From assembly GCA_902590395.1 (NCBI GenBank), contig CACIWQ010000001.1, positions 1-64,000 of the forward strand: DNA of 64,000 nucleotides, written 5' to 3'. This DNA comes from an uncultured Pelagibacteraceae bacterium. Lineage in GTDB: Bacteria; Pseudomonadota; Alphaproteobacteria; Pelagibacterales; Pelagibacteraceae. The notes beneath the pieces are model-generated. The model ran no database searches, was not told where the DNA came from, and saw only the letters and a program-made list of their open reading frames with translations. Positions 60,889 to 63,333 of this stretch are shown here, in pieces. Each line of letters opens with the position of its first letter. The first letter of the stretch is position 1. The translations under genes and the position numbers were made by a program.

Positions 60889-61257
60889 TTAATCCCAGTC
60901 TAATGCACCCTTTTTCCACTCATATATAAATCCTATGGTAAGTATAAATAAAAACAACATCATGGACCAAAAACCCAACGCTCCAATATTTCCTAAAGAT
61001 ACAGCCCAAGGAAATAGAAAAGCTATTTCTAAATCAAATATGATAAATAAAATTGCAACTAAATAAAACCTAACATCAAATTCCATTCTAGAATCGCTAA
61101 ATGCTTCAAATCCACACTCATAAGCTGAAAGTTTTTCAGGATCAGGTTTTTTCGGCGATAATATGAAATTTAAAACTACAAAGCCTACGCTGACACCTAG
61201 CGCGATGAAAATAAAAATTAATATAGATAAGTAGTCCTTTAAAAAATCAATTAACAT
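60889..61257 (-). CDS. nuoA: NADH-quinone oxidoreductase subunit A
   Basis: The 122-residue membrane subunit has three helices and the conserved [44 protein letters not shown] segment, whose loop cysteine and acidic residues sit near the quinone channel. It is the first gene of the nuoA-N operon and of a run extending without a spacer above 10 bp down to dnaE. Confidence 0.98.
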
Positions 61258-61436
61258 ATTTTATAGGTTAATTTATATACCACTTGTTTTAACACAAATA
61301 GATGTCAGATTGTCTGTAATTATAATGTTACATGGGGTTAAATATGTGCAAAATTTATTGTGCCTGTTGTTAAACAAACACAAATATTCAACTTTTACTT
61401 TCCTATAAAATATATATATTGGCTTTTAATATACGA
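61258..61436. promoter_or_regulatory. Region between nuoA and tRNA-Asp holding the nuo promoter
   Basis: Noncoding DNA separates the divergent nuo operon and tRNA-Asp. On the minus strand a perfect TATAAT lies at 61324-61319, about 62 bp before the nuoA ATG, but no good -35 hexamer is 16-18 bp upstream (TTGCAC is 21 bp away). Plus-strand TA-rich blocks around 61411-61433 may serve the tRNA. No ORF or known RNA was recognised. Confidence 0.4.
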
Positions 61437-61472
61437 GATTTGGTGACAGCAAATTTAAGAGCTCACCAAATC
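61437..61472 (+). repeat. Perfect 10-bp inverted repeat upstream of tRNA-Asp
   Basis: GATTTGGTGA (61437-61446) and TCACCAAATC (61463-61472) are exact reverse complements with a 16-base loop. The repeat ends 16 bp before the tRNA. A shorter outer pair, TTGGC (61419-61423) and GCCAA (61476-61480), could enclose it. No T tract follows, so it is not a typical terminator on the plus strand. It may be an RNA processing hairpin in the tRNA leader or a protein-binding site. Confidence 0.8.
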
Positions 61473-61488
61473 GGTGCCAAAATTGCCT

Positions 61489-61565
61489 GGGGGTGTAGCT
61501 CAGTTGGTTAGAGCGCCTGCCTGTCACGCAGGAGGTCGCGGGTTCGAGTCCCGTCACTCCCGCCA
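61489..61565 (+). tRNA. tRNA-Asp (anticodon GTC)
   Basis: Acceptor GGGGGTG pairs with CACTCCC (one G-T pair), D arm TAGCTCAGTTGGTTAGAG, anticodon stem CCTGC/GCAGG with loop CTGTCAC giving GTC, T arm GGTTCGAGTCC, discriminator G and encoded CCA (61563-61565). The next gene's ribosome-binding site starts 6 bp after it, so tRNA and acyltransferase may be on one transcript. Confidence 0.97.
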
Positions 61566-61579
61566 TGTAATTGAGGAAT

Positions 61580-62449
61580 ATGAAAATAAAAAAATACATA
61601 GAAGAAAAACTTGATTCTTATAATCGAATAGCTGTTTGGGGATCTGGTGAAATGGGAAAACAGGCTATTCGCGAATGGTTACCAAAACATAAAATTAAAA
61701 GTGTTATAGACTCGAATTCAAAAAAAATTGGTGAGAATTTTGAAACTTTTAAAATTATTGCTCCTCAAGATTTAGAATTTAATCAAATAGATTGTGTTAT
61801 TGTTTGTACTACCGCATATAATGAAGTGCTAGAAATTTTATCAAATAAAGAAAAAAAAATAAAATATTTTTACGTTCTAGAGCTCTTCCCAGGGAGTGAA
61901 GATACTAATAATGAAATTGAAAATCTCCTTGTTGATATAGCTGTTGCTAAAAATACTAACTGGTTTAAGTTTTTTATAGAACGTCCACAAATATTAATAA
62001 ATATTTTCTATAGAATTACTAAATCTTGTATGAATAAAACCTTTTTAATCCCAGTTTTTTGGATTATGAAAATTTTTTATACAATAATTTGTATATTTTT
62101 TTCTGTCGATCTGCCAACATCAGTAAAAATAGGGCCTGGTTTTGTTTTGGTCCATCTAGGTAATGTAGTTTTCCATCGTGGTACAAAAATTGGAGATTTT
62201 GTTACTATATACCAAAATGTTACAATTGGCTCAAACGATACTGGCAATGTTCCAATTTTAAAAAACTTTGTGACTTTGTTTCACGATTCTTCAGTAATAG
62301 GAAATTCTGAAATTAAATCACATTGCCGTGTAGGAGCTAAATCTTTAGCTATAGATTTAAAAACTGAAGAAGCCAGCACCATTTATGGTATTCCAGCAAA
62401 GGTTCAAAGAACTTTTAATTGGTACAAGAATAGGCAAAGTAAAAGTTGA
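61580..62449 (+). CDS. Rossmann-like domain fused to a CysE-type hexapeptide acyltransferase
   Basis: From the ATG at 61580 the protein has 289 residues. Residues about 17-110 form a Rossmann-like fold (VWGSGEMGKQAIREWL, VIDSNSKKIGENF, CVIVCTT) of the kind seen in NeuD and sugar methyltransferase C-domains. A hydrophobic linker (about 135-175) leads to a left-handed beta-helix (about 178-285) with IGPGFVLVHLGNVVFHRG and YQNVTIGS, close to serine and colanic-acid acetyltransferases. TGAGGA before 61580 sets the start; TTG at 61571 is less likely. It probably acetylates a sugar or nucleotide sugar for a surface polysaccharide. The next gene overlaps by 4 bp. Confidence 0.78.
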   Translation: MKIKKYIEEKLDSYNRIAVWGSGEMGKQAIREWLPKHKIKSVIDSNSKKIGENFETFKIIAPQDLEFNQIDCVIVCTTAYNEVLEILSNKEKKIKYFYVLELFPGSEDTNNEIENLLVDIAVAKNTNWFKFFIERPQILINIFYRITKSCMNKTFLIPVFWIMKIFYTIICIFFSVDLPTSVKIGPGFVLVHLGNVVFHRGTKIGDFVTIYQNVTIGSNDTGNVPILKNFVTLFHDSSVIGNSEIKSHCRVGAKSLAIDLKTEEASTIYGIPAKVQRTFNWYKNRQSKS

Positions 62450-63333
62450 AAAATAAATCTGAAATAACTTTTGTAATAGTTTCTCTTAAAGCCATAAAAG
62501 GTATTAAAAACTGTTTAAACAATATTGGAAAAAATTATAAAGTGATTATCGCAGAAAATTCCAATAGTGCAGATATAAAAAATGATATAGAAAATAGTTT
62601 TTCTAATGCTAAATGCATTCTTTTGGGAAAAAATTTTGGTTATGGTACTGCAGCAAATGTTGGTATTTCAAATGTTGAAACTAGATTTGCATTTTTAATT
62701 AATGCTGACATAGAAATTTATGAGAATCAAATAATTAATTTAGAAAATAAATTAAATGAATTAAAAAACGATTTTTCGATTGTAACTCCTTTTTATGACG
62801 ATTTTAAAGATTTTATTGAAAATAATAAATTTGATAAATTGTCTAATCTTAATCAAAAAATTCTACTTAAAAATAATACTGAACAAGTAACGTTAGCAAA
62901 AGGCAGTTCTATGCTTTTTAATTTATCCAAATTCGAAAAAAAAATATTTGATGAAAATTTTTTTTTCTTCTTTGAAGAAATAGATGTTTGTAAAAAAATT
63001 ATCGGTAAAAGAGAAAAAATTCTTTTAATCAACAATATAAAAATAAATCATTCAGGAAATAAAGGTGTTGAAAATATAGATTCTCATGAAATATTAAATT
63101 TTAGAAATTGGCATTATTATTGGTCTTCTTTTTATTACCACAAGAAACATTATGGTTTCTTTAGCTCCTTAAAGATTCATGTGAGACGATTAATTAAATA
63201 TTATTTACTCAAAAATTATTACATTATTTTTAATAAAAAAAAAGCTGACGTTTATAAGTATAGATTCAATGGTTTATTAAAGTCTATGTTAGGAAAAAAA
63301 TCTTCAAGTGGTCCAAATTATGGTGGGCGCTGA
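62446..63333 (+). CDS. Family 2 glycosyltransferase (rhamnosyltransferase-like), TTG start
   Basis: The 295-residue GT-A protein starts with TTG overlapping the preceding stop (TTGA). EITFVIVSLKA opens the nucleotide fold, NFGYGTAANVGI and FLINADIEI form the sugar-nucleotide and DXD-like metal site near 65-90, and FFFFEEIDVCKKI matches the ED motif of WbbL/RfbN-type rhamnosyltransferases. A basic C-terminal part could touch the membrane. The last codons, GGR and stop, lie within the opposing tRNA-Val gene (63321-63396), so the true end may have been created by a junction with the tRNA. It likely builds O-antigen or another glycan. Confidence 0.85.
   Translation: MKNKSEITFVIVSLKAIKGIKNCLNNIGKNYKVIIAENSNSADIKNDIENSFSNAKCILLGKNFGYGTAANVGISNVETRFAFLINADIEIYENQIINLENKLNELKNDFSIVTPFYDDFKDFIENNKFDKLSNLNQKILLKNNTEQVTLAKGSSMLFNLSKFEKKIFDENFFFFFEEIDVCKKIIGKREKILLINNIKINHSGNKGVENIDSHEILNFRNWHYYWSSFYYHKKHYGFFSSLKIHVRRLIKYYLLKNYYIIFNKKKADVYKYRFNGLLKSMLGKKSSSGPNYGGR

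Follow-up and report, generated by a model that had tools for sequence, protein, structure and literature searches.

A probable phage-derived leader ahead of tRNA-Asp in a SAR11 genome, with a hairpin loop complementary to the tRNA-Asp anticodon loop

The sequence ahead of tRNA-Asp in the window (the whole 64,000-nucleotide stretch analyzed here, from a bacterium of the SAR11 group, which is among the most abundant in the ocean) is probably a tRNA 5' leader taken over from the attachment site (attP) of a temperate SAR11 phage, with a hairpin that would act by kissing the tRNA. From the sequence evidence, we put the probability of this reading at about 0.6. Integration would bring a phage leader and its promoter to drive expression of the host tRNA-Asp, and both would remain after the prophage was lost. 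Less certainly, the hairpin, called H1 here, would work as RNA, its loop GUGACAG kissing the anticodon loop CUGUCAC of a tRNA-Asp that is either free in trans (feedback) or attached in cis (folding, processing). Such pairing may couple the output of tRNA-Asp to its level or folding. A 10-bp inverted repeat that had drawn attention to the site, called H2 here, would be the alternative state.

The window belongs to a 0.93-Mb assembly that is 73% complete and is assigned to SAR11 on its gene content and on the match to Pelagibacter phage HTVC028P. The gene order at the site is nuoA (minus strand, 61257-60889), the repeat, tRNA-Asp (GTC; plus strand, 61489-61565), a hexapeptide-transferase-like gene, a family-2 glycosyltransferase gene, and tRNA-Val (minus strand), which places the repeat between divergent units, as the original prediction had stated. 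Its description of the repeat was also accurate. An inverted-repeat search returned plus-strand arms at 61437-61446 (GATTTGGTGA) and 61463-61472 (TCACCAAATC) that are 100% complementary across a 16-nt spacer (61437-61472; -12.0 kcal/mol), and the right arm ends 16 nt before the tRNA. TTGGC at 61419-61423 and GCCAA at 61476-61480 form the outer 5-bp pair, GGTG is present at 61473-61476, and the importance given to competing folds was judged right. No T run follows 61472 and no plus-strand terminator was found by scan, in agreement with the claim that the absence of a U tract speaks against an ordinary terminator; a simple terminator is rejected as the identity of the repeat. A described RNA family is rejected too, since an Rfam scan of 61200-61700 to E=10 returned only the tRNA and chance matches. 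What failed was the expectation that close relatives with the same gene order would keep the repeat ahead of tRNA-Asp, as it is absent from 14 congener loci. The lack of the repeat in congeners leaves the site unrefuted, since the leader was acquired and is common to other genera and to phages. The repeat exists as described, but the conserved element is a different, shorter hairpin, H1.

The 14 congener loci have tRNA-Val immediately ahead of tRNA-Asp, both in the same orientation, and no leader; nuoA follows this tandem in 11 of them (by eye). The tandem was also found in 19 of 20 further representatives from genera g3, g6, g8, g9, g10, g11, and g12, the other one (G048) ending at a contig end. 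The arrangement in the window, with tRNA-Asp flipped and preceded by a leader, is thus derived. Positions 61258-61330 (minus strand; right limit approximate) resemble by eye the congener region upstream of nuoA. Between 61258 and 63396, tRNA-Asp and the two sugar genes are inverted relative to the tRNA-Val and nuoA of congeners, and the glycosyltransferase frame (62446-63333) terminates within tRNA-Val. For the first sugar gene, a comparison with 22 other genomes of the genus gave no match at E<=1e-10. A minus-strand glycosyltransferase-like frame also lies between tRNA-Val and tRNA-Asp in G195 (L448, 3468-4922), and this locus looks like an island hot spot.

The leader (61387-61486, plus strand) is a homologue of the left (P) arm of attP in temperate SAR11 phages. 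A sequence-only profile, R1, built from 11 phage arms with the window excluded, matched the window at 34.7 bits (E=3.4e-9 over 25 sources), and 15 congener loci gave no match at E<1. The window site was the only R1 match in its own genome (E=2.4e-8). Among 317 family genomes, R1 matched 13, strongly only in G184, G112, G073, and the window; the matches in the other nine were weak (E of 2.7e-4 to 0.01). These nine are G041, G020, G022, G314, G021, G308, G130, G177, and G115, of which the first four were inspected: G041 has a leader ahead of tRNA-Asp, G020 shows no leader, and the matched loci of G020, G022, and G314 carry no tRNA. A search of 247 family genomes showed the leader beside tRNA-Asp in other genera, and in hosts from several genera it stands ahead of a complete tRNA-Asp. 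In G073 and G112, a broken, displaced 5' half of an older tRNA-Asp lies between tRNA-Val and the leader, which is the mark of insertion inside a tRNA-Asp gene.

The phages carry, in this order, the leader, the 5' half of tRNA-Asp, and a tyrosine integrase gene. A pattern scan of IMG/VR returned 11 contigs with the leader and the 5' half, all of which diverge from tRNA-Asp at or just past the anticodon loop CTGTCAC; the part that phages carry corresponds to 61489-61527 in the window. A second pattern gave 21 matches, with the 5' half only in 19, a complete tRNA-Asp in L103, and one false positive, L105, which was dropped, leaving the attP anatomy in 20 of 21. In all 13 phages examined, the integrase frame begins 251 to 318 nt downstream of the tRNA start, and Pfam Phage_integrase was confirmed for L064 and L065. 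The invariant columns of ten aligned integrases include the expected Arg, Lys, His, and Tyr, which we take to be the catalytic residues. With a fragment of the target tRNA beside the integrase gene, these phages belong to the class whose att sites carry a 5' tDNA fragment.

GCACCA repeats flank the tRNA half, mostly at -27 to -14 on the left and at +152 to +206 on the right. There are one to three copies right of the core in 20 of 20 phages (L105 dropped), and totals per phage are 3 to 7 against shuffle means of 0.04 to 0.11, two left copies being demanded by the search pattern itself. An inverted TGGTGC lies between -108 and -140 in 16 of the 20. These repeats are read as putative arm-type integrase sites. 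Where phages have GCACCA, the window has two decayed positions (61463-61479, plus strand), TCACCA at -26 and GTGCCA at -15 (the second by eye); a search for TCACCAA arms gave 0 matches. A candidate leader promoter (TTTACT, about 17 nt, and an AT-rich box; 61394-61420, plus strand) was placed by eye and from the R1 alignment and resembles by eye the promoter regions of phages and of host tRNA-Val, and a consensus promoter scan returned none on the plus strand at these positions.

A scar of phage origin is the most likely account of the window. No displaced tRNA half was found at 61258-61488 or 61566-63320, and no integrase match was found in its own genome (G000), which is incomplete and was searched without a positive control; the site is therefore called an old scar rather than an intact att pair. 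The genes next to the leader in G184 and G343 look phage-like when compared by eye with L064; both sequences reach a contig end, and the pieces examined contain no integrase. At the G343 junction (L446/L447), the tRNA-Asp stem halves ATCGC and GCAGG pair poorly by eye, possibly a natural case of a phage tRNA having to compensate.

H1, which the original prediction did not describe, is nested in the repeat at 61437-61455 (plus strand), with the stem GATTTG (61437-61442)/CAAATT (61450-61455) around the loop GTGACAG (61443-61449). This loop is complementary at 7/7 positions to CUGUCAC, the anticodon loop of tRNA-Asp, and the computed energy of the loop/anticodon-loop duplex is -9.0 kcal/mol. H1 and H2 share their 5' strand and are mutually exclusive; alone, H1 reaches -2.7 kcal/mol versus -12.0 for H2, which makes H2 the stronger in the window. 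Because H2 excludes H1 and is stronger alone, formation of H1 in the window would need the tRNA or transcription timing.

The stems around this loop include CGAG/CTCG (L191), GTA/TAC (L193), TTGTG/CACAA (L081), AAGTG/CGCTT (L062), GAGC/GTTC with a mismatch beside the loop (L059), ATTTG/CAAAT (window), and TTGTG/CATAA and TTATG/CGTAA (genus g5). Across 29 selected stem-loops, the stem differs in sequence yet remains paired, and the loop hardly varies. Kinship among these rows makes shuffles overstate independence, and the pattern used for searching often included the loop. In this set, 86.8% of 174 cells were paired versus 58.8% after shuffling, 49 cells had changed on both sides versus 20.3, and covariation was 0.808 versus 0.292, with 0 of 500 shuffles reaching each value and slid controls at 0.246 or less. 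This set adds complete-tRNA leaders and more attP to one of 22 stem-loops, for which the corresponding values were 84.1% versus 59.5%, 33 versus 13.2, and 0.728 versus 0.273. One measure gave no signal in the 29 rows, the number of pairs with any two-sided change (6 versus 5.3; 208 of 500 shuffles). The alignments (A2, A4, and A5, of 17, 22, and 29 sequences) hold hand-picked distinct representatives; RNAalifold predicted four of the H1 pairs on A4, and G195 is misaligned in A2, which counts against H2.

Among 20 tRNA-Asp rows, GTGACAG stands at about -47, exact in 14 and with one change in 3; it is absent in L199 and L208, and the upstream sequence of L184 is too short. The attP of L101, L102, and L104 has GTGACAA, a 6/7 complement. 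The loop is kept while the arm motif varies (GCACCA, GCATCA, TACACCA, GTACCA, TTCACGA; motifs by eye). GTGACAG is rejected as an integrase arm site on account of this constancy, and derivation from the tRNA anticodon arm by inversion is rejected because the stems are unlike CCTGC/GCAGG. The stem is free to vary, the loop is fixed, the tRNA matches it, and the hairpin sits in the leader of that very tRNA; from these features we infer RNA-RNA kissing. The complementarity of the loop may point to a mode of tRNA sensing not described before.

The hairpin could instead be a DNA element of integration, with the host copies as relics. It would then be either a second core-type site in inverted orientation, with the 7-bp GTGACAG flanked by inverted repeats, or a single strand folded into a site that integrase or excisionase binds. 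Its place in attP, with the inferred arm sites on one side and the core on the other, fits this account, as does a loop that is an inverted copy of the crossover region. However, the inverted repeats have no sequence in common between phages, unlike protein sites, no such hairpin was seen in tRNA-Asn or tRNA-Met phages, and the hairpin also stands ahead of complete tRNA-Asp genes that do not serve as attachment sites. Five such phage-encoded genes were found, in L061 (with L064 and L067), L101, L102, L104, and the G184 prophage. Their tRNA-Asp sequence differs, and each has a GTGACAG hairpin with another stem, of 7 or 8 pairs, 37 to 48 nt upstream. In the G184 prophage, the anticodon loop of this tRNA is TTGTCGA, to which the leader loop is only a partial complement. 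A complete tRNA-Asp of their own is an additional feature of L061, L101, L102, L104, L075 (15480-15556), and the G184 prophage. L103, L208, and L210 have a complete tRNA-Asp between the repeat arms and the integrase, without the GTGACAG hairpin.

Host genomes also speak against a DNA element. GTGACA precedes tRNA-Asp in 20 of 397 family genomes (9 in g5, 3 in g7, 3 in g4, 2 in g9, 2 in g3, and the window); per genomes with a tRNA-Asp match, this amounts to 9/9 in g5, 3/3 in g7, 2/5 in g9, and 1/16 in g1. Within the genus of the window, where 16 genomes have a tRNA-Asp-region match, only the window has it. In g5, g7, and g9, the hairpin and its loop persist although the tandem arm repeats have been lost or have decayed, which is hard to explain if the host copies are relics. 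Given this persistence, an integration element is unlikely. Across 240 genomes of the class, only the window and one match in G757, taken for chance, were found, and a reversed control pattern gave 7 matches in 6 of these genomes.

On viral contigs, a stem was present at 17 of 18 GTGACAG sites before tRNA-Asp versus 7 of 52 others (P=7e-10), many of the 18 being known beforehand and their total set by eye (4 by automatic label). The viral count comprises 95 GTGACAG loci, including L069, which is absent from the 80 listed of 96 stretches. A CTGTCAC control showed a stem in 9 of 57, and several of these nine are, by eye, genuine tRNA-Asp anticodon arms. In the complete genome G026 (33 tRNAs in 59 pieces), an exact complement of the anticodon loop lies within 150 nt upstream only for tRNA-Asp, in a hairpin with 6/6 stem pairs. 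L364 carries a GTGACAG loop in a perfect 10-bp stem (GACCACTTGC/GCAAGTGGTC) 42 nt before a tRNA-like stretch; this stem-loop may be an antisense tRNA-Asp arm.

An RNA hairpin could also serve in another role, its complementarity not being regulatory. It might be a decoy or shield against nucleases that attack the tRNA-Asp anticodon, or a spacer or processing signal. Anticodon nucleases are known phage defenses, and the presence of the hairpin in phages suits a decoy or shield; a spacer would leave the fixed loop unexplained. We regard such roles as improbable.

It is very doubtful that the function resides in H2 itself, as an attenuator or a leader hairpin. Its pairing holds in 56 of 63 cells in nine chosen host leaders, against 44.2 (sd 2.6) under a crude mutation null, and at least six T follow H2 in 7 of 9 g5 leaders (by eye), as in an attenuator. 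Against this, the window has no such T run and H2 covariation is weak (0.238 versus 0.176, with pairing at 89.1% versus 86.2% shuffled). Moreover, its 3' strand overlaps the arm-type repeat in phages, the right arm coinciding in position with the first of two tandem arm-type integrase sites of attP. A search of viral contigs for the exact 10-bp repeat gave 0 matches. Taken alone, the 10-bp repeat is only moderately unusual, because perfect 10-bp inverted repeats with 3- to 30-nt loops begin at 21 positions in the 64-kb window, 4 of them (two sites, one of which is H2) with at least four G/C per arm, and the RNA fold at the site has a modest z of -2.33, with 3 of 200 shuffles folding equally well. 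Chance and shared descent without function is scarcely credible for H1; the alignment rows are related, but 49 two-sided changes against 20.3, much lower slid controls, and copies at another kind of locus all oppose it.

Kissing of H1 with tRNA-Asp would resemble two known RNA systems. In T-box riboswitches, a leader RNA recognizes a tRNA via its anticodon and forms mutually exclusive hairpins. The leader described here shares the exclusive hairpins and a possible recognition of the anticodon, but it lies ahead of a tRNA gene and its 19-nt hairpin complements the whole loop; no T-box family match was found in the Rfam scan (61200-61700, to E=10). RNA I and RNA II of ColE1-type plasmids kiss through fully complementary 7-nt loops. 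Two fully complementary 7-nt loops are also present here, as read from sequence, but the proposed partner is a tRNA anticodon loop. No report of an anti-anticodon hairpin in a tRNA leader was found in the literature searched, which left out most subscription papers; judged by that literature, the hairpin is rated as a new class and the attachment-site type as already known.

A further proposal, which we hold tentatively and at somewhat less than even odds, is that this is a tRNA gene read by its own product. Leaders spread by marine temperate phages, and retained by SAR11 once the phage has been lost, would offer an exact complement to the anticodon loop and set tRNA-Asp synthesis by kissing and by a switch between H1 and a competing hairpin, the latter terminator-like in most of genus g5. 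If so, a tRNA-sensing leader would control a tRNA gene, and phages would have a means of bringing an essential tRNA under their control at a suitable dose. Should the pairing prove real, it would be a new RNA mode of recognizing a specific tRNA and would explain how a phage replaces a host tRNA promoter without harm to the host. The H1 element is small enough for in vitro testing. Whatever its function, temperate SAR11 phages with 5'-half att sites in tRNA-Asp, tRNA-Asn, and tRNA-Met, and the scars of the tRNA-Asp group in host genomes, are described here.

Islands with a 5' tDNA fragment are a minority class in Islander, 159 of 3919 (PMC4383910). The SAR11 sites share with this class the crossover at the anticodon loop, the tRNA 5' half in attP, two-sided tandem repeats, an adjacent integrase, and, in G073 and G112, the displaced half. 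They differ in that the window has no prophage or displaced half, has its unit in flipped orientation, and carries an anti-anticodon hairpin, for which no description in this class was found in the literature searched. In tRNA-dependent lysogeny of actinobacteriophages, the target tRNA is not rebuilt (PMC10865867). In contrast, attP here holds the whole 5' half to the anticodon loop and these phages fall outside that system, with the G343 junction (ATCGC/GCAGG, by eye) as a possible exception. Pelagiphage HTVC028P (MW273921) has a related integrase (32.6% identity) and a tRNA-Asn 5' half in attP with repeats around it; it differs in its tRNA, and no anti-anticodon hairpin was seen. A tRNA-Leu fragment in an HTVC019P-like phage is reported in PMC3861242.

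Relatives of the integrase numbered 52, and 42 have a tRNA 5' half upstream, assigned by eye to tRNA-Asp (27), tRNA-Asn (8), and tRNA-Met (CAT; 7). Seven of the remaining 10 have less than 140 nt of upstream sequence, and three have at least 600 nt and no half. The HTVC028P tRNA-Asn half is exact in 7 of 21 relatives. A nucleotide search of named phages matched tRNA-like stretches, and GTGACA is absent from the 200 nt upstream of each of two cyanophage tRNA-Asp genes. Seven tRNA-Asn rows have TTTACAG or TTGACAG at about -47, one base off the complement and at shuffle level (0.22 to 0.27); taken together with 17 nt and TAAAAM, this site resembles the -35 box of a promoter. A tRNA-Met row has no such site. 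On these tRNA-Asn and tRNA-Met rows, a general rule by which each tRNA target would come with its own anticodon loop in inverted form is rejected.

Some phages have GATCGC in place of GCCTGC in the tRNA-Asp anticodon stem. The same variant is present in 145 of 297 genomes of the order, all in g3, and also in g6 and g11 representatives and in G062 (g5). Since GATCGC is found in both phages and host genomes, the phage tRNA-Asp halves, compared in this way, match tRNA variants present in hosts. The attP of L100 (HTVC028P, 2500-2620), L198, and L213 contains 5' halves of tRNA-Asn or tRNA-Met, and the tRNA-Asn phage group has an inverted TTCACTA pair upstream.
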